From contig PNAE01000007.1 of the NCBI GenBank assembly GCA_003169895.1, positions 1-64,000 on the forward strand: a DNA stretch of 64,000 bases. The letters are read 5' to 3'. Positions within the stretch are counted from its first letter, which is position 1. Each line of letters opens with the position of its first letter. Shown here one piece after another: positions 42,208-50,155 of this stretch. This DNA is from Gemmatimonadota bacterium. GTDB lineage: Bacteria > Gemmatimonadota > Gemmatimonadetes > Gemmatimonadales > GWC2-71-9. The translations under genes were made by a program, and so were the position numbers. Below the pieces are notes generated by a model, which made no database searches, was not told the origin of the DNA, and saw only the letters and a program-made list of their open reading frames with translations.

Positions 42208-44622
42208 TCATCCGTGGGTGGCGTGGCGAGGAAATCCTTCCGGTTCGAACAGGGGGAACGCCGCAGCTTCGGGGTGTCGCAACTCAGCGAACAGCAACGC
42301 GAGTCCCGCCTCGCCCTTGAAGAGGCTGAGCGGTCGAGGCAGCGTCGACCGGCAACGCTCGAACACTTCGGCTGCCCGGTGCGCCAGCGTCGCTGCACGG
42401 TCCAGCCAATCGGCCTGGCCGGTGTGACGATAGAGATTCAGCAGCGCGTGCGCCCGCCCAACCAGTCCACAACAAAGATCGAAGATCACGCTGTCGGATT
42501 CCCAGGCGCTCCATGCGCTCCCTTCCGCCAGCACGCCGAAGCCGCGTCGAGGGAAATGTACGTTCGCCACGGTCCATAGGTGGACAAACCCGGCCGGCCC
42601 GTTGCACCAGCCCGCCACCTGGTGCCCCCCCAGCACGCTCGGCGTCAGACCAGCCCGCTGCTGCGGCCAGTGTATGCCGCGACCGAGAGACTCGGCGGCG
42701 TCTGCGAGTTCGACCAGTCGACGCTGCATCGCGGATGGCAGCGGCTGGCCGGTCGCGCGGTGCCATCGGAGCGTGGCGTACAGCAAGCCGGCCCAGCCAT
42801 GCGCGATTCCGAAGTCAGCCGGATCCCGCGTGCGGCCGATTGGACCGAATCGATCGATTTCCCGCCACAGCTCGGTCATGACTCGGCCGCCCGCACGTTG
42901 CAGCGAGGCGATCTGCTCCGACATAGTGGCCGGGAGCGCCTCGATCAGGGTGGCACATGCGAGCGGCACACCCATGCGTCCCAGCGTGAGGTCGAAGGAA
43001 GGCCATGGGATCCCCGCGGCGGTTGTGAACCGCTCGATCGCGGAAACCGCACCATCGGCATCGTTCATCGCCAACGCAATGAGCGCGCGAACGACGTGCA
43101 CACCCGTGATGCTGTGGAACGGGGAGACTGGGCCGAGGCCCTCGGCCTCCAGGCCGTCAGTGGGCGCGGCGAACGCCGCGTCAGTGTTGCTGTCGCGTTC
43201 AACGCGCGTGATCCACGCGTCGGCGAGCGCAAGCGTCCTGGCGTCGTCACGCAGGCAGGCAAGACGGTAGAGCGCGTACGCGACCCCGGCGCGGCCGAGC
43301 ATGATCGAACATGTTGGCGCGCGGCCGGCCGTCGTGAACGCCGGCGCCGCGTAGTCAACTCGAGCGAGGAATGCGCTGACGACGCCGTCGAGACTCGTAC
43401 GCGACGCCCGCAATCGTCGCGCGTCGGCGGCGCGGCGCGTACGTGGCACCCGCGCGAGGGCGCGCGCCAGATCGGTCATCGATCGAAACCGATCCTGCGG
43501 ACGCTTGGCAAGCGCGCGCGCGAAAACGGCTTCGAGTTCGGGCCAGGGTGCCGTGCCGCGGCGAGCGAACAGCAACGGCGGGTCGGACACGATCTGCTGC
43601 AACATCGTCTCGCGGTCGAGCGCCAGTTCGATCGGGTGCGCGCCGACGACCAGCGAGTAGAGCAGCGTGGCCACGGCGTACTGTTCGGCGGCCGCCGTGG
43701 GGGCCGGGAATTCGCCGCCAGCCAGCACCGAAGCGGCCTGTTCCGGCGCCAGGAACTGCGGCACGGCCCCCCGGCGGGCACGACCGCCGAGGCGGAGTGG
43801 CGCGATCGCACGCGCCAGGCCGAAGTCGAGCAGATGCACCGCGTCGCGACGATCGATCAACAGATTCCGATCGTGGACGTCACCGTGCAGCACGCCGGCC
43901 TGGTGGATGCCCGCGTACGCGTGGGCGATGCGGGTCGCCAGATCGAGCAGCTTCACCGTCGCGTCGGCAACAGCGCGGCTGCGCAACTCGGCGAAGGCGA
44001 CATCGGGCGCAATCCCGGTACACCACGACATCGCGAGCCAGGGACGCTGCGCATGCCGGCCGCTGCCGATCAAGGCCGGTGCGCCGTTCCCATCGAGATG
44101 ACGGAGCACCGCCGCTTCTCTTGTGAAGAGTGCACCCGACGTCACACCGGGGCGCGCCAGCTTCACCGCGACGACGGCACCGTCCCGATCGCGTGCTTGA
44201 TACAGTTCGGTGTCATCGACGACATGGAGACAGCGCAGCACCACAAAACGCCCCACCGTGTCGCCGCGATCGCGCGTCGGTAACGTCCGCGCCGCTTCCG
44301 GCGATCCGGCGACGACCAGGAATCGACTGTTGAAACAGTCGCGCAGAAGCGGGAATGCCTCTTCCAGGAGCGCGTCAGGGTTGAGGTCGAGCCGCTCCGC
44401 GCATGCGATGACGGCAGTTGCCACCGGCTTGGCCTCAAGAAACTCGGCCAGCAGACTGGCGCCGAGACGCCCAATGAGCCGGGCCGGCGCGCGGCCCCGC
44501 AAGCGCGTAACGGCGTAGTCGCCGCGCTTTGCCCCAAGACGCGCCCGTAAGGACGGCGACAGCTTGGCTGTCGGCGTGATGCTGACGTCGGCCGCGAGGA
44601 TCAAGGGGTCAAGAATCGGCAT
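42208..44622 (-). CDS. RRE-kinase-LanC fusion: lanthipeptide-type synthetase without lyase domain
   Basis: An 804-residue protein in three parts. Residues of about 40-125 look like a PqqD-type winged helix (ASLLAEFLEAKPVATAVIA, then DALLEEAFPLLRD), i.e. a RiPP recognition element. Residues of about 130-400 are a Hanks-type kinase with VAVKLA, HGDVHDRN (catalytic Asp248), DFG (Asp266), APEQ and a late KRPQDRFRSM. It has HGD instead of HRD and a degenerate glycine loop, as in LanKC-type kinases. Residues of about 430-804 are a LanC cyclase: His608 in GIAHGWAG, Cys673 in GWCNG, and Cys717-Cys718 in LCCGLVG. The zinc ligands are therefore Cys-Cys-Cys, as in ProcM-type cyclases, not Cys-Cys-His. 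No OspF-like lyase domain is present. The kinase should phosphorylate Ser/Thr of the precursor and the LanC domain add Cys. The ATG overlaps the HopA1-like gene by 14 bases. Confidence 0.85.
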   Translation of the reverse strand: MPILDPLILAADVSITPTAKLSPSLRARLGAKRGDYAVTRLRGRAPARLIGRLGASLLAEFLEAKPVATAVIACAERLDLNPDALLEEAFPLLRDCFNSRFLVVAGSPEAARTLPTRDRGDTVGRFVVLRCLHVVDDTELYQARDRDGAVVAVKLARPGVTSGALFTREAAVLRHLDGNGAPALIGSGRHAQRPWLAMSWCTGIAPDVAFAELRSRAVADATVKLLDLATRIAHAYAGIHQAGVLHGDVHDRNLLIDRRDAVHLLDFGLARAIAPLRLGGRARRGAVPQFLAPEQAASVLAGGEFPAPTAAAEQYAVATLLYSLVVGAHPIELALDRETMLQQIVSDPPLLFARRGTAPWPELEAVFARALAKRPQDRFRSMTDLARALARVPRTRRAADARRLRASRTSLDGVVSAFLARVDYAAPAFTTAGRAPTCSIMLGRAGVAYALYRLACLRDDARTLALADAWITRVERDSNTDAAFAAPTDGLEAEGLGPVSPFHSITGVHVVRALIALAMNDADGAVSAIERFTTAAGIPWPSFDLTLGRMGVPLACATLIEALPATMSEQIASLQRAGGRVMTELWREIDRFGPIGRTRDPADFGIAHGWAGLLYATLRWHRATGQPLPSAMQRRLVELADAAESLGRGIHWPQQRAGLTPSVLGGHQVAGWCNGPAGFVHLWTVANVHFPRRGFGVLAEGSAWSAWESDSVIFDLCCGLVGRAHALLNLYRHTGQADWLDRAATLAHRAAEVFERCRSTLPRPLSLFKGEAGLALLFAELRHPEAAAFPLFEPEGFPRHATHG

Positions 44623-45748
44623 GGGCAGCGACGTCGTTCGCCTGGCGCAGCAATCGGGTGGTGGGTGCCCAGGTTGATGTGTCGACGCCGTCGAGGGAGA
44701 GTCGATCGAGAGCGTATTGCACCGGGGTCGCGGCGTGACAGGCGAGCGCGCTCGCAAGGGCCTTGGCAAGTCGGGACGTCACCCAACCACGCCAGCTTCG
44801 ATCCTGCAGGCTCATTGGCAGGTTCGCATCCGGCGCCAGATCGGCACCCCAGGACAGCAGCGCGCCGGGCCCGGTCGGCGCGGTGAATGGCACGCCCTGC
44901 GCCGGCAGGCCATCGAGCCGGGTGCGCAGCCGAGCGGCCGCCTCGAACAGATCGTCTCGCGTTGTGAAGTAGCCGACGAGCCGGTCCGGGCGGAGCAAAC
45001 TCGGCAGGTCACGTCCAACCTTGAGGGTGAACGGCCCATGTCGCGCGTTCCGCAGGTCGAGCATGGCGCGGTAGGCGACCGGCGTGCCTTCCGGCGTCGG
45101 GCTCACATACAGCTTGTAGTGCGCGCCATTCGGCGCCGTGCGCATCGATCGCCCGGAGTCCGAGACAAGCCACCGTCCCACTACATACGATGCCGGGTCC
45201 GGCAGGGCATGCCGCACCCGGCGGCCGGACTCGCGATGCTCGCCGAGAAGGAAGCGGAGGATTGCGCCGTCGTCTGGGAACCGCGAGCGCCAGGCCGGTG
45301 ACAGCGGCCGGGCGTGATAGCGGTACAACCGGTCGGCGAGCCGTGCGGACGAGACGGGCCAGAGCGCGGCGGCGTGAGCCAGCGCATCGAGCGACAATTG
45401 TGCGAGCGGCGATGCAGCTCGCCGTGTCGCCGACCCGGGAAAGAACGCTCGATGAAGGCGTGGTCCCGAGCGGAAGCGCCCGTCGACCTCGATTTCGAGC
45501 AAGCCGTCGAGCACCAGGCGTGCGATGCTGCGGCGATTCGCCGTCGTCGCTGGAATGCGCGCCGGGGTGCGCAGTGCGCTGATGAGCTTGGCGGTCGCGG
45601 GTGCGACGTGAAAGGCCACGCCGAAGCCCGGCCGCGTGGGCCGGAGCAACGCGCCAGGGGTGCCGCTACCGGAACTCGCGGTTGGGTGATAGTGTCGAGC
45701 GGCGCGAACGCGGGCGTCAGCGAGGAGCCGACCGCTGAAGCGAGCCAT
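44609..45748 (-). CDS. HopA1-like protein, candidate phospho-Ser/Thr lyase of the RiPP pathway
   Basis: A 379-residue protein. The first 100 residues contain a possible winged helix (VAPATAKLISALR ... SIARLVLDGLLEIEVDGRF), perhaps a second leader-binding element. Residues of about 115-165 (LADRLYRYHARPLSPAWRSRFP) and 185-270 resemble the HopA1 effector family, with PFTLKVGRDLPSLLRPDRLV giving Lys243, Arg246, Arg253 and Asp255. HopA1-family proteins are the lyases of class V lanthipeptide pathways; in such a role it would remove phosphate to make dehydroalanine or dehydrobutyrine. The match is from memory of family patterns. It starts 12 bases after a strong hairpin and has no good ribosome site, and it overlaps the next gene by 14 bases. 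The alternative is an unrelated conserved RiPP accessory protein. Confidence 0.6.
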   Translation of the reverse strand: MARFSGRLLADARVRAARHYHPTASSGSGTPGALLRPTRPGFGVAFHVAPATAKLISALRTPARIPATTANRRSIARLVLDGLLEIEVDGRFRSGPRLHRAFFPGSATRRAASPLAQLSLDALAHAAALWPVSSARLADRLYRYHARPLSPAWRSRFPDDGAILRFLLGEHRESGRRVRHALPDPASYVVGRWLVSDSGRSMRTAPNGAHYKLYVSPTPEGTPVAYRAMLDLRNARHGPFTLKVGRDLPSLLRPDRLVGYFTTRDDLFEAAARLRTRLDGLPAQGVPFTAPTGPGALLSWGADLAPDANLPMSLQDRSWRGWVTSRLAKALASALACHAATPVQYALDRLSLDGVDTSTWAPTTRLLRQANDVAAHADS

Positions 45749-45760
45749 GCGTGGAGGCAG

Positions 45761-45791
45761 TCCGACCGCTCCCGGAACGGGAGCGGTCGGA
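45761..45791 (-). terminator. Perfect hairpin between precursor and modification genes
   Basis: TCCGACCGCTCCCG and its exact complement form a 14-bp stem with a 3-base loop, 16 bases after the precursor stop and 12 bases before the HopA1-like ATG. No T-run follows, so it is more likely an attenuator or mRNA-stabilising hairpin that keeps precursor mRNA in excess than a full terminator. Confidence 0.75.
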
Positions 45792-45807
45792 CCGCCCAGT
45801 CAGATCG

Positions 45808-46017
45808 TCAGCTGCAAGCAGTGCGCAGCTGGTCCCGAAGCGCCGACAGGTCGGAATCCACCGCCAGCTTGGGTTTGGCGGCGGTGTTGTTGGTGCAGCA
45901 GGTGCATGCCCCGGCACCGTCGCGGTCGCCGCACTGCTGCGTGTGCGTCGTACCGCCGGGACCGATCACGTCGGCGAAACTGACGAACGACAATTCGCGA
46001 CTGGCAAAGCGTGTCAT
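45808..46017 (-). CDS. Putative RiPP precursor peptide (Thr/Cys-rich)
   Basis: A 69-residue peptide preceded by a very strong Shine-Dalgarno (GAGGAGG, eight bases before ATG) and a near-consensus promoter. Residues 1-22 (MTRFASRELSFVSFADVIGPGG) look like a short leader ending in a double-glycine-type site. Residues 23-45 hold Thr23, Thr24, Thr26, Cys29, Cys38, Thr39, Cys40, Cys41, Thr42 and Thr45, enough for several lanthionine or methyllanthionine rings. Residues 50-69 are leader-like again (LAVDSDLSALRDQLRTACS), an acidic amphipathic helix, so a C-terminal follower is also possible. It is the first gene of the strand that encodes the HopA1-like protein and the RRE-kinase-LanC fusion. That it is the substrate is inferred from position and composition. 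Confidence 0.75.
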   Translation of the reverse strand: MTRFASRELSFVSFADVIGPGGTTHTQQCGDRDGAGACTCCTNNTAAKPKLAVDSDLSALRDQLRTACS

Positions 46018-46085
46018 GGGTGGTGCCTCCTCGAGAAGTGGGCGGGCGCCTGAGCCCGTCGCCGGCGCAGCGTGCGAAACGAATG

Positions 46086-46194: not shown

Positions 46195-47499
46195 ATGAAA
46201 GGCCCACCGCTCCGGGTTGCCAGCGTTCAGTTCGCGTTCGACGGCAACCCGGCGGCGATCCCACTCCGAGACCCTGTCACCCTCGACTTCCTCGGCGCCA
46301 CGCCGGAATGGACGCTCGCCGGGTCGCGCCAGCCCGCCGCGTTCGTCGCGGGCAGCCGGCCTCACGTGCGGGTCGTGTTCCGGCGAACTCCGGCGCTTCA
46401 GGCCGATGCTGGCCCGTGGCAGATCGGCGCACGCGGACACCTGGGTCCGGGCCTCGTGCCGCGCACCGTTCGCCTTCGGTTCAATGCCCAGGGCGATTCG
46501 CAACCCGTCGAGTTCCGCTTCACTGATGCGATTCCGCACGGCATCGTTGCTGCTCGCCGGCATTGGCGCTGGTACGCGGTGTGCAACGGGCAACGCCACG
46601 CCCTGGGCATTACCCGCCACCTGGTCTATCACGCGCGGCGCCGGCCCATCTCACCTGCCAGTTGGGCGGTGACGTCCGAGCGCCGGCAGGGCCCGTTCGG
46701 AAATCCGGATGCGCCGTGGGTCTATCTCCCACTGATGCAATGGACGTGTCGCTGGGCCGCCGGCCGGCGCGGCGACAAGGCGATCTGCGATGCGATCATC
46801 GCGAACGTCAAGTATTCAGGGTTGCGCTACGCCGAGGCGGCATGGAACGTCGGGCAGATGCTGCAGGTGGGTGGCGGCTACTGCGGCGGCTGGTTTCGCA
46901 TGTTCCAGGCCATGGCGGGGGCGCAAGGCGTGCGGGTTCAACGCCGCGCATTCCTGGTCGATTGGCGCATGGAGCACCGCGACATCATGCGCTGGTGCGC
47001 CATCGTGGTGTCCGCCCCCGGACTCCGCCGGAAACGCCCGGCCGAAGCCGCAAGCGTGTTCCACGATTCGAACGTCGGGCGCGCGAAGCGCGATCCGATC
47101 CAGCGGTTTCACGTGCGGCGCTATCGTTTCTGGGGACTGCCAGGCGCCAAGGCCGACGGGCATTGCATCAACTTCCTGCAGCACAACGGGCGCTGGTATC
47201 TCTACGACGCGTGTTTTTTCGCCAAGCCGGTGGCGCTCAGCAATTTCACGCTGCCACGCACCAGTGCAGAGCGCACCATCGCGGTCGAACGGCAGGGCAC
47301 CTTCCAACGGGCCTACCTCAATCGGGCGGTCAGCCACATGCTCGGTTCGCTACGCCACGGTAGGCGGCTGTTCAAGACCGACCACCCCGATCCCGCGGAG
47401 CCGCAGTTCACCAGCGACATTACCCGCAACGGCCTGACAGTGAAGACCGCGATCATCCCGCCACGGTGGCGGAATATCACCTTCTACTGGATGGCGTAG
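46195..47499 (+). CDS. Transglutaminase-like cysteine enzyme divergent from the RiPP operon
   Basis: A 434-residue protein. The second half has a transglutaminase/protease-like core: Cys230 in GGGYCGGWFRMFQAM, His323 in DGHCINFLQHNGRWYLYDA and Asp338 in the same stretch, in the order and spacing usual for the fold. Residues 1-170 are beta-rich and unrecognised. No signal peptide is seen, so it should be cytoplasmic. Members of this superfamily are mostly peptidases or amide-forming enzymes. It starts 177 bases from the precursor ATG, in the opposite direction, with the promoter region shared. A role in removing the leader or in cross-linking is inferred from position only. Start: the ATG at 46195 was preferred to 46123. 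Confidence 0.7.
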   Translation: MKGPPLRVASVQFAFDGNPAAIPLRDPVTLDFLGATPEWTLAGSRQPAAFVAGSRPHVRVVFRRTPALQADAGPWQIGARGHLGPGLVPRTVRLRFNAQGDSQPVEFRFTDAIPHGIVAARRHWRWYAVCNGQRHALGITRHLVYHARRRPISPASWAVTSERRQGPFGNPDAPWVYLPLMQWTCRWAAGRRGDKAICDAIIANVKYSGLRYAEAAWNVGQMLQVGGGYCGGWFRMFQAMAGAQGVRVQRRAFLVDWRMEHRDIMRWCAIVVSAPGLRRKRPAEAASVFHDSNVGRAKRDPIQRFHVRRYRFWGLPGAKADGHCINFLQHNGRWYLYDACFFAKPVALSNFTLPRTSAERTIAVERQGTFQRAYLNRAVSHMLGSLRHGRRLFKTDHPDPAEPQFTSDITRNGLTVKTAIIPPRWRNITFYWMA

Positions 47500-47510
47500 G
47501 AAGTCGAGCA

Positions 47511-47891
47511 ATGACGCGACGCACACAGTCGTCTGACGCCCCGCTGACCGCGGAAGCCCATCTGCAACGGTTGCTCTCCGGCAGTCAGTCGTCCCGCACA
47601 TACCAGTGGCATCACGTCCTCGCCATCGCCGAGGCTGTGACGGCGAAGCGCACGAGCCGGCGCGAGACGCTGCTCCGCCGGGCAGCGCTCTATCAGGGGA
47701 CATTCCGGCTCGATCCGAGCCACGGCATGCCGCACGCCATGCCGCCCGAGGATGTCCTGCGGTGCATCGCGGTGCAAGCGCTGGGCAAGTGGGATCCGCG
47801 GCAGCATCGCGAAGTGATTCTGCGCGTCGCCGACACGGCGGAGCGGGAGATGGTCGCCGAGATCGCCCGGGCGGCACTAGCTGCGGAATGA
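47511..47891 (+). CDS. Small helical protein of unknown function
   Basis: A 126-residue, mostly helical protein (EAHLQRLLSGS, HHVLAIAEAVTAKRTSRRETLLRRAALY, VLRCIAVQALGKWDPRQHREVILRVADTAEREMVAEIARAAL) without signal peptide or cysteine motif. The last part is faintly like a HEAT repeat. It starts 11 bases after the transglutaminase-like gene, with AGGAA upstream, so the two form a unit. The stretch upstream of 47511 in the same frame lies inside the previous gene and was left out. No function is recognised. Confidence 0.6.
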   Translation: MTRRTQSSDAPLTAEAHLQRLLSGSQSSRTYQWHHVLAIAEAVTAKRTSRRETLLRRAALYQGTFRLDPSHGMPHAMPPEDVLRCIAVQALGKWDPRQHREVILRVADTAEREMVAEIARAALAAE

Positions 47892-47909
47892 CCTTTCCGC
47901 AGTCCTAGT
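47876..47909. terminator. Bidirectional terminator covering two convergent stops
   Basis: ACTAGCTGCGGAA and TTCCGCAG-TC-CTAGT pair around a 6-base loop, with a 2-base bulge. Both stop codons (TGA at 47889 on plus, TAG at 47905-47907 on minus) lie inside it. Confidence 0.6.
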
Positions 47910-49155
47910 TGTCCCGCGCAAGCCGGATGCCCGAGAACTGCCAGCGTGCGTCCGGTGGGAAGAAGTTGCGATACGTCGAGCGGGCGTGTGACCGGGGCGT
48001 GGCGCACGATGCGCCGCGCAGCACGATCTGGTTGCACATGAACTTGGCGTTGTACTCGCCGAGGGCTCCCGGGGCGGGCCGGTAGCGGGGATATGCCGAG
48101 TACGCGCTCTGCGTCCACTGCCAGACATCGCCGTAGAGTTGCGCCGGTTCGTTGCCCGGGGCGCGCCCACCCGGCATCGGATGAAAGTGGCCACCCTCGA
48201 GAAAGTGGCCGTCGACCGGGGACGGCGTGGCGACCGCCTCCCACTCTGCTTCCGTTGGCAGGCGCGCCCCGGCCCATCGCGCGTACGCATCGGCTTCGTA
48301 CCAGCTCACGTGAGTCACCGGCTCGGCGTCCGTCACCGCGCGCATTCCGGACAGCGTCATCGTCCACCAATCGCCGTCGCGTGCCTCCCAATACAGCGGC
48401 GCGCTCCAGCCGTGTTCGCGAACAACATTCCAGCCATCCGACAGCCAGAGTTCCGGTCGGCGGTAGCCGCCGTCGGCCATGAACTCACGGTATTCGCCGC
48501 AGGTGACGAGGCGGTCGCCGACCTGGAACCGATCGATGAACACGCGGTGGCGGGGCGATTCGTTGTCGAACGCGAATCCCTCGCCGGCAAAGCCGATTTC
48601 GACCAGTCCCCCGGGTCCGTCGATCCAGCGCGCGGCTGGCACCGCGCCCTCCACCGGCACCGTCGCCGTCGCCGTCGCCTGGCGATACACCGGCCGCAGC
48701 GGATTGCACGACAGCAGATGCTTCAGGTCCGTGAGGATGAGCTCCTGGTGCTGCTGCTCATGATTCAATCCCAGCACCACGACGTCCGGCGCCCCGTCAC
48801 CCGCGTCGAGAAGTTCGAGCATCGCAGCATCGACGTGCGTGCGATAACGCCGCACGTCGGCGACGCTGGGCCGGGTCAGCAAACCCCGGTGCGGTCGGTA
48901 CGGTTGCGGCCCCACCGCGTTGTAATATGAGTTGAACAGATACTCGAAGTGGGCGTCGAACGGCCGGAAATCCCGGCGTGCCGGCTTCAGCACGAAGGTC
49001 TCGAAGAACCACGTGGTATGAGCCAGATGCCAGCGAGTTGGACTCGCATCGGGCATCGACTGCACCACGAAGTCCTCGATGCCGAGGGGCTCGCAGATCC
49101 AGTCAGTCGTGGCGCGAACGGCCCGGTACTGCTGGGCAAGGCTCGGGGTGGACAT
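47905..49155 (-). CDS. egtB: EgtB-like iron-dependent sulfoxide synthase (ergothioneine)
   Basis: A 416-residue enzyme with a DinB-type N-domain and a formylglycine-generating-enzyme (FGE-sulfatase) C-domain. The iron ligands are His46 in WHLAHTTW and His132 and His136 in HEQQHQE. The FGE part runs from about residue 190, with RLPTEAEWEAVA and a late RGASCATPRSHAR. It joins a sulfur donor (Cys or gamma-Glu-Cys) to hercynine with O2. AGGAGA stands six bases before the ATG at 49155; the frame continues upstream without conservation. It is downstream of egtD by 37 bases on the same strand. The donor cannot be told because egtA and egtC are absent here. Confidence 0.92.
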   Translation of the reverse strand: MSTPSLAQQYRAVRATTDWICEPLGIEDFVVQSMPDASPTRWHLAHTTWFFETFVLKPARRDFRPFDAHFEYLFNSYYNAVGPQPYRPHRGLLTRPSVADVRRYRTHVDAAMLELLDAGDGAPDVVVLGLNHEQQHQELILTDLKHLLSCNPLRPVYRQATATATVPVEGAVPAARWIDGPGGLVEIGFAGEGFAFDNESPRHRVFIDRFQVGDRLVTCGEYREFMADGGYRRPELWLSDGWNVVREHGWSAPLYWEARDGDWWTMTLSGMRAVTDAEPVTHVSWYEADAYARWAGARLPTEAEWEAVATPSPVDGHFLEGGHFHPMPGGRAPGNEPAQLYGDVWQWTQSAYSAYPRYRPAPGALGEYNAKFMCNQIVLRGASCATPRSHARSTYRNFFPPDARWQFSGIRLARDN

Positions 49156-49192
49156 ATGCAGTCTCCTGTCTGGTCGCGCCTTGGCCGCCCAG

Positions 49193-50155
49193 TCAGGCCC
49201 GTCGGGGAACCTGGAACAGCAGGACCGCGAACCAGCGCCGGTCATCGGTGAACACCTGGCGTAACTCGAACCCGAAGCTGGCCAGATACTGCTCCAGTTC
49301 ATCGAGCACGAACTTCCGGCTGATTTCGGTCATGATCCGTTCTCCCGCCCGGACCCGAACGTCACGCCCGAGTGGCCGGAGATGCACCGTCTGCTCGCAG
49401 GCAAACCGCGCGAAGATCTCGACGCGCTGCCATTCCGGGTTGTAACTGGCGACGTGGTCAATCTGGCCGAGGTTGAGACCGGCGCCAAGTTCGCGATTCA
49501 TCCGGTGGAAAATGTTGCGGGTGAACTCCGCGGAATGCCCGGCCACATCGTTGTATGCCGCGGTGATCAGGCCAGGATCCTTCACGAGATCCACGCCGAG
49601 CAGCACGAAGTCGCCCGGAACGAGATGGGCCGCGACGTCGGACCAGAAGCGCGCCGCTTCCGTCTGGTTGAAGTTCCCGACGGTGCTCCCCAGAAAGACC
49701 AGCATTGCGGGAGACAACTCGCCGAGCAACGGGAAGGCGGCATCGTAGGTGCCGTGAATGCCCGTGACTCGCACCGCGGGATACGCCACCGATATCGCCG
49801 CACTTCCAGTGCGCAGGGCCGCCTCGCTCACGTCGACCGGCACATAGTGTACCGAGCGCACATGGTTCGAGTAGGCTGCCAGAAGGTGGCCGGTCTTCCT
49901 GGAGCTGCCCGACCCCAGTTCGATCAGGGTGACCGGCCCGGTGAGATCGCGGATGTCGGCGGCCGACGCGTCGAGGATCGACGACTCTGTTCGGGTGAGG
50001 TAGTACTCCGGCGTTTCGCAGATCGCGTCGAACAACCTGCTGCCCCGCTCGTCGTACAGGAATCGACACGGGAGCCACCGCGGGTGATCGCTGAGCCCGA
50101 TCATCACGGCAGTCGCAAATTCCCGCGCCGCAACGTCTGCCTGGTTACTGCTCAC
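49193..50155 (-). CDS. egtD: EgtD histidine N-alpha-methyltransferase (ergothioneine)
   Basis: A 320-residue SAM-dependent methyltransferase that trimethylates histidine to hercynine. Motif I is LIELGSGSSRKTGHLL; the family signatures CETPEYYLTRTE, LGSTVGNF and RNIFHRMNREL are present, with a C-terminal SRKFVLDELEQYL. It overlaps the stop of the RDD/SpoIIM gene upstream by 11 bases. egtB follows. Confidence 0.95.
   Translation of the reverse strand: MSSNQADVAAREFATAVMIGLSDHPRWLPCRFLYDERGSRLFDAICETPEYYLTRTESSILDASAADIRDLTGPVTLIELGSGSSRKTGHLLAAYSNHVRSVHYVPVDVSEAALRTGSAAISVAYPAVRVTGIHGTYDAAFPLLGELSPAMLVFLGSTVGNFNQTEAARFWSDVAAHLVPGDFVLLGVDLVKDPGLITAAYNDVAGHSAEFTRNIFHRMNRELGAGLNLGQIDHVASYNPEWQRVEIFARFACEQTVHLRPLGRDVRVRAGERIMTEISRKFVLDELEQYLASFGFELRQVFTDDRRWFAVLLFQVPRRA

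Follow-up and report, generated by a model that had tools for sequence, protein, structure and literature searches.

A predicted RRE-guided lanthipeptide-type operon whose precursor peptides are conserved on both sides of a variable core

Contig PNAE01000007.1 of a Gemmatimonadota bacterium (GenBank assembly GCA_003169895.1) was analysed over its first 64,000 nucleotides, hereafter the window. We describe here a minus-strand operon encoding, in this order, a short Cys/Thr-rich peptide that is very probably the precursor of a ribosomally synthesized and post-translationally modified peptide (RiPP), a HopA1-like lyase and a protein in which a kinase is fused to a LanC cyclase (Table 1). The open reading frame (ORF) of the peptide, singled out in an earlier sequence-only reading of this DNA, is present exactly as claimed, on the minus strand (46017-45808), and its translation is MTRFASRELSFVSFADVIGPGGTTHTQQCGDRDGAGACTCCTNNTAAKPKLAVDSDLSALRDQLRTACS (69 aa). 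The residue-level features named in that reading are present as well: GPGG occupies residues 19-22, cysteines are found at positions 29, 38, 40, 41 and 68, and Thr39 and Thr42 are interleaved with Cys38, Cys40 and Cys41. Residues 51-64 read LAVDSDLSALRDQL. The ORF has the usual attributes of a RiPP precursor (i.e., it is short, lies beside modifying enzymes and combines a conserved recognition region with a variable core), and the HopA1-like/LanC-fusion pair announced for its neighbourhood is indeed there. No Pfam or NCBIfam family scored above cut-off for any precursor, from the window or elsewhere.

The source genome (3.42 Mb, 98% complete) carries a paralogue of the precursor on another contig (G000:C4, L026:9874-10077, minus strand), with ∼62% identity over the full length (E 2e-20). 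Residues 1-13 are identical in the two peptides despite synonymous changes, and CTCCTxNT is shared except for one residue, as is LAxDxDLxALRxQL. Third codon positions hold 33 of the 61 base differences and the nonsynonymous and synonymous divergences (dN 0.23, dS 1.48) show that the pair is under purifying selection. After the paralogue come the first part of a lyase-like frame, in which similarity is soon lost, and a strong terminator-like repeat. As this frame decays, and as no other full lyase was found in the source genome, the paralogue looks like an orphan precursor, which could be modified in trans.

Among 395 genomes of Gemmatimonadota, six encode the lyase. A peptide profile gave matches in five of these six and in none of the other 390 genomes searched; the remaining lyase genome (G231) holds a divergent peptide candidate only. 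Scanning contigs with a single lyase protein gave no matches, a multi-sequence alignment being needed. When the lyase alignment profile was scanned against 84,980 species, 28 loci were recovered from many phyla, including Gemmatimonadota, Acidobacteriota, Chloroflexi, Nitrospira, Actinobacteria, Alpha- and Betaproteobacteria, Armatimonadetes, Bacteroidota and others. Comparison of all ORFs in the neighbourhoods yielded three widely recurring items: the lyase (30 loci, including the window), the kinase-LanC protein (28 loci) and a Cys-rich peptide. Where a locus has sufficient flanking sequence, lyase, kinase-LanC protein and adjacent Cys-rich peptide nearly always occur together; L041, L059 and L064 are truncated or incomplete. 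A family search with the peptide alone returned mostly chance matches (E 0.006-0.1) and was not used. Because the precursor has a paralogue in the same genome, co-occurs with the lyase among genomes and has homologues beside the enzymes in many phyla, it stands beyond chance, and these data confirm that the ORF is a genuine gene.

Most of the peptides start with the motif MxFxvkDLmIxVlp, continue into a Cys/Ser/Thr-rich middle of 20 to >130 residues and end with a C-terminal part of ∼60 residues in most relatives (consensus LxxLrxQLxxxLaavexxExxvxxslrPqtxxEvdxLExxLxxALeEL). The peptide of the window is shorter and has only MTRFASRELSFVSF and DLSALRDQL. Residues 1-16 are free of Cys in 23 of 24 peptides and the C-terminal domain is mostly without Cys in the same set; the cores look unrelated from locus to locus, some being repetitive. 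When leave-one-out profiles were used to rank all six-frame ORFs, the correct one came out on top in 21 of 23 loci with the N-terminal end (18 residues) and in 20 of 23 with the C-terminal part; at the window locus itself, the precursor came fifth with the N-terminal profile and first with the C-terminal one (E 0.28). As these motifs were in view when the peptides were first chosen, the result lends support but is no blind test. The alignment of peptides near HopA1/LanC loci bears out the proposal of leader-like parts at both ends. Of the two cores that had been envisaged, the one followed by a C-terminal follower (residues ∼23-48) is a better option than the one comprising everything after residue 22.

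Several cores deserve a description of their own. Those of L036:9317-9664 (minus strand) and L037:7115-7435 (plus strand) consist of repeated TDCRKGGxTC-type units (T-D/E-C-R-K-G-G-x-T-C). L053 (2258-3175 and 3195-4058) and L038 (430-1143) encode homologous precursors with 26-33 Cys (33 in L038) and repeated CGACS-type units, of the CGACSHAAT type in L053; each of these two loci has two tandem precursor genes, whose products are possibly thioether-laddered repeat proteins. A Paracoccus precursor candidate (L065:7052-8299) bears both end motifs around a core nearly free of Cys.

The GPGG sequence had been likened to the end of a double-glycine leader, in which case a C39 peptidase transporter would cut after residue 22 and release residues 23-69. 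Although GPGG is present in the window peptide, the paralogue lacks it, only 8 of the 24 peptides have a GG, GA or GS pair in the 12 residues preceding their first Cys, and no Peptidase_C39 was found in the source genome, from which a stretch may be missing at 98% completeness (the control search was positive in 8 of 14 genomes). This explanation is largely refuted and we give it hardly any credence. The description of the tail as an acidic amphipathic helix did not hold either: the net charge of the last 20 residues is 0, and the helical hydrophobic moment of the tail does not exceed that of shuffled sequences (p ∼0.19).

The lyase was assigned from its predicted structure (pLDDT, the predicted local distance difference test, 88.5), its match to Pfam HopA1 (PF17914) being sub-threshold (E 0.016). 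In this model the lyase domain matches the lexapeptide lyase LxmY (Z ∼15), HopA1, the lyase domains of LanKC proteins and OspF/SpvC. K243, R253 and Y260 do not vary among 25 homologues, and their spacing is exactly that of K219, R229 and Y236 in CaoY; the position of CaoY Arg187 corresponds, by spacing, to Lys212 (CaoY data from PMC9486802). The LxmY alignment starts at model residue 106, leaving the N-terminal domain outside the match. Residues 8-92 of this domain align with residues 3-86 of TigE, a RiPP radical SAM enzyme (Z 7.4, 75 residues aligned), which form the RiPP recognition element (RRE) region of that enzyme, and the domain is homologous to the N-terminal domain of the kinase-LanC protein (hhalign probability 81.5%, E 1.1e-5). 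A PDB profile search with the lyase N-terminal domain also pointed to immunoglobulin-binding protein A; this match was set aside as a local resemblance, as it involves a single local motif absent from the window lyase. The motif, FRANPxYELVxFDRLPxxxR...DP, is found in the N-terminal region of the lyases of L038-L062 and resembles, at the profile level, a staphylococcal protein A motif. PDB sequence searches with the whole lyase or with the kinase-LanC N-terminal domain returned nothing useful.

In the third protein of the operon a PF00069 kinase is fused to PF05147, and no APH match was found. The kinase and LanC motifs are intact in the window protein and the CCG zinc motif is kept in nearly all relatives; the motifs point to the likely zinc ligands of the LanC domain. 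The best NCBIfam match was LanL (NF038150), with 142 bits vs a cutoff of 650. Residues 1-128, predicted alone (pLDDT 89.1), gave top structural matches that are almost all known RREs, including MccB (Z 9.3) besides those listed in Table 1, and the modelled domain folds like an RRE. No Pfam or NCBIfam family scored above cut-off for either RRE domain. The sequence-only reading had counted on one RRE-like domain in this system; there are in fact two, both N-terminal, one in the kinase-LanC protein and one in the lyase.

From the observed ORF, the conservation of both its ends, the operon, the domain composition with its predicted folds and the catalytic motifs, we infer the chemistry on the precursor, the binding of its ends to domains, the removal of either end, the ring pattern and the activity of the product. 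Judging by motifs and predicted folds, candidate enzymes for each lanthionine step (kinase, lyase and LanC) are present in the operon. We consider it probable that this three-gene operon directs an RRE-guided hybrid of class IV and class V lanthipeptide biosynthesis, acting on a precursor made of an N-terminal leader, a variable ring-forming core and a C-terminal follower. The N-terminal segment (MxFxxxxLxVxV type) would be the leader and, as the natural ligand of the RREs, would dock as an extended strand on those of both the kinase-LanC protein and the lyase. The kinase would phosphorylate Ser and Thr residues of the variable middle, the HopA1-like lyase would eliminate the phosphate to give dehydroamino acids, and the LanC domain would add Cys thiols to these to form (methyl)lanthionine rings. 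The C-terminal domain (LxxLrxQL..., represented by a single short segment in the window peptide) would be a follower, most likely holding or positioning the core on the enzyme complex, and would be removed later. Peptides of this kind are probably stapled into rings in soil and water bacteria of many phyla.

The role of the C-terminal domain is where the interpretations diverge. As this domain is kept across phyla while the core varies, a recognition or positioning follower is favoured, and a tail that is part of the product is the main rival. In the latter case the C-terminal helical domain would stay in the mature product, for anchoring, partner binding or folding, to yield a ring-stapled protein and no small excised peptide. 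The length of the C-terminal part in most relatives and its conservation, better than that of the core, agree with this, as do the cores with up to 33 Cys and >130 residues with repeats (L038, L053), and no conserved transporter or protease was found across the loci. However, the short peptides of Gemmatimonadota have a tail of only ∼20 residues that varies in detail, and the adjacent transglutaminase-like gene could encode a protease; we regard a retained tail as unlikely. Less probable still is a conventional single leader, in which the N-terminal motif alone is recognised and the C-terminal segment is simply where the core ends, its conservation serving product activity. RREs do account for N-terminal recognition, and in other lanthipeptide classes the only leader described is N-terminal (PMC9486802, PMC10604976), but a C-terminal domain that persists across phyla next to unrelated cores, and is usually free of Cys, fits recognition better than product function.

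Other points weigh against the favoured reading as a whole. RREs usually account for one recognition motif and leave the second conserved end unexplained, so the tail might instead belong to the product. Neither end of the precursor exceeds shuffled sequences in helix or strand hydrophobic moment. The RRE match of the lyase is moderate when taken alone, the peptides of L035 and L065 were picked out by eye, and the ORFs used for the leave-one-out test had been selected with the end motifs in view. No transporter, immunity gene or dedicated protease was found to be shared across the loci, which counts here too. More generally, the system is known here from genes and predicted folds, from which product, modification and binding are extrapolated.

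The operon has additional elements nearby. The hairpin that separates the precursor and lyase genes may serve to protect the transcript or to attenuate it; relatives, inspected briefly, showed no comparable single hairpin. The transglutaminase-like gene was found in only 2 of 390 Gemmatimonadota genomes, adjoining this operon in both (the other being L033); it is a probable accessory gene and a candidate for the protease role mentioned above. Further along, on the minus strand (47905-50155), a gene pair resembles, by eye, EgtB and EgtD of ergothioneine biosynthesis.

Table 1. Features of the precursor locus in the window
Feature	Position	Strand	Remarks
Precursor gene	45808..46017	minus	69 aa; N-terminal motif 1-16, Cys/Thr-rich core ∼23-48, putative C-terminal follower ∼50-69
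Ribosome-binding site AGGAGG	46026..46031	minus	8 nt upstream of precursor ATG; rated strong from sequence
HopA1-like phospho-Ser/Thr lyase (LanY-like)	44609..45748	minus	379 aa; extra N-terminal domain; PF17914 sub-threshold, predicted structure
RRE-like domain of lyase	45473..45727	minus	residues 8-92; TigE match, homology to kinase-LanC RRE
Lyase domain	44654..45433	minus	residues 106-365; K212, K243, R253, Y260
RRE-kinase-LanC fusion protein	42208..44622	minus	804 aa from ATG at 44622; 14-nt overlap with lyase gene
RRE domain of kinase-LanC protein (predicted)	44296..44616	minus	TigE Z 10.2, TbiB1 Z 10.0, PqqD Z 8.9, NisB Z 8.8
Protein-kinase domain PF00069	43588..44202	minus	HGDVHDRN and DFG
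LanC cyclase domain (PF05147)	42250..43308	minus	WCNG and CCG zinc-ligand motifs
Precursor-lyase intergenic hairpin (20 bp)	45755..45797	minus	-44.9 kcal/mol, z -5.75 vs shuffles; no U-run
Divergent transglutaminase-like protein	46195..47499	plus	PF01841 sub-threshold; C/H/D residues kept in one relative
Small protein, weak HEAT-repeat match	47466..47891	plus	kept beside transglutaminase-like gene in one relative

If this assignment is right, the operon would represent a lanthipeptide route in which RREs link a class V lyase to a class IV-like kinase-cyclase and in which the precursor is conserved on either side of the core. It offers a testable system for two questions, namely how the kinase and lyase enzymes recognise their substrate and whether a follower permits long cores; its enzymes are few and are spread over many phyla beyond the usual producers, and the diversity of cores found in nature suggests tolerant catalysts. 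Whether it should be viewed as a separate and widespread lanthipeptide class, in which the RRE-lyase and the RRE-kinase-LanC protein would grip precursors at both ends and so allow very long thioether-laddered cores (up to 33 Cys), is a tentative idea toward which we lean a little less than away from it. Some of these precursors may have been listed before, among the heterogeneous "type-C" precursors of class V that PMC9486802 mentions.

As in class V (cacaoidin, lexapeptide, pristinin A3; LanK/LanY), the lyase is a stand-alone LanY-type, HopA1-like protein, whose lyase domain superposes on LxmY and has the key Lys/Arg/Tyr spacing. However, class V LanK is separate and APH-type, whereas the kinase here is PF00069-type and fused to LanC; both enzymes bear RRE-like domains, in contrast to class V, since PMC10604976 states that an identifiable RRE is missing from all core enzymes of class II-V lanthipeptide clusters; the Arg187 of CaoY is, by spacing, replaced by Lys; and the precursor has a conserved C-terminal domain. 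The kinase-cyclase fusion is shared with class IV LanL and class III LanKC, and the zinc-ligand motifs are kept as in class IV but unlike class III, whose cyclases lack the zinc motif. In LanL and LanKC, however, the N-terminus is a lyase domain, which is here replaced by an RRE, so that lyase, kinase and cyclase do not form one polypeptide as in class IV. The domain order is that of a class IV synthetase whose lyase sits instead on a protein of its own, of class V type, with both proteins carrying an RRE. As the lyase agrees with class V while the other features of classes V, IV and III are not all found, we file the system as a hybrid RRE-guided variant, under no numbered class.

Among RRE-dependent RiPPs (lasso peptides with TbiB1, pyrroloquinoline quinone with PqqD, class I dehydratases NisB/MibB), the likeness lies in the short N-terminal precursor motif and in the winged-helix RRE fold predicted for the kinase-LanC N-terminal domain, and for that of the lyase with a moderate fold match backed by homology. 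The difference is that the RRE is carried here by a kinase-LanC protein and a HopA1-type lyase, fusions that we did not find described in the open-licence literature, where no account of a HopA1-RRE link or of a lanthipeptide follower was found either; the main text of an RRE discovery study (PMC12710340) mentions neither HopA1 nor kinases. The conserved, recognition-type sequence after the core has counterparts among other RiPPs. Follower peptides are known in bottromycin and in plant and fungal cyclic peptides; unlike these, the present precursors would combine a leader and a follower in a lanthipeptide-type system.
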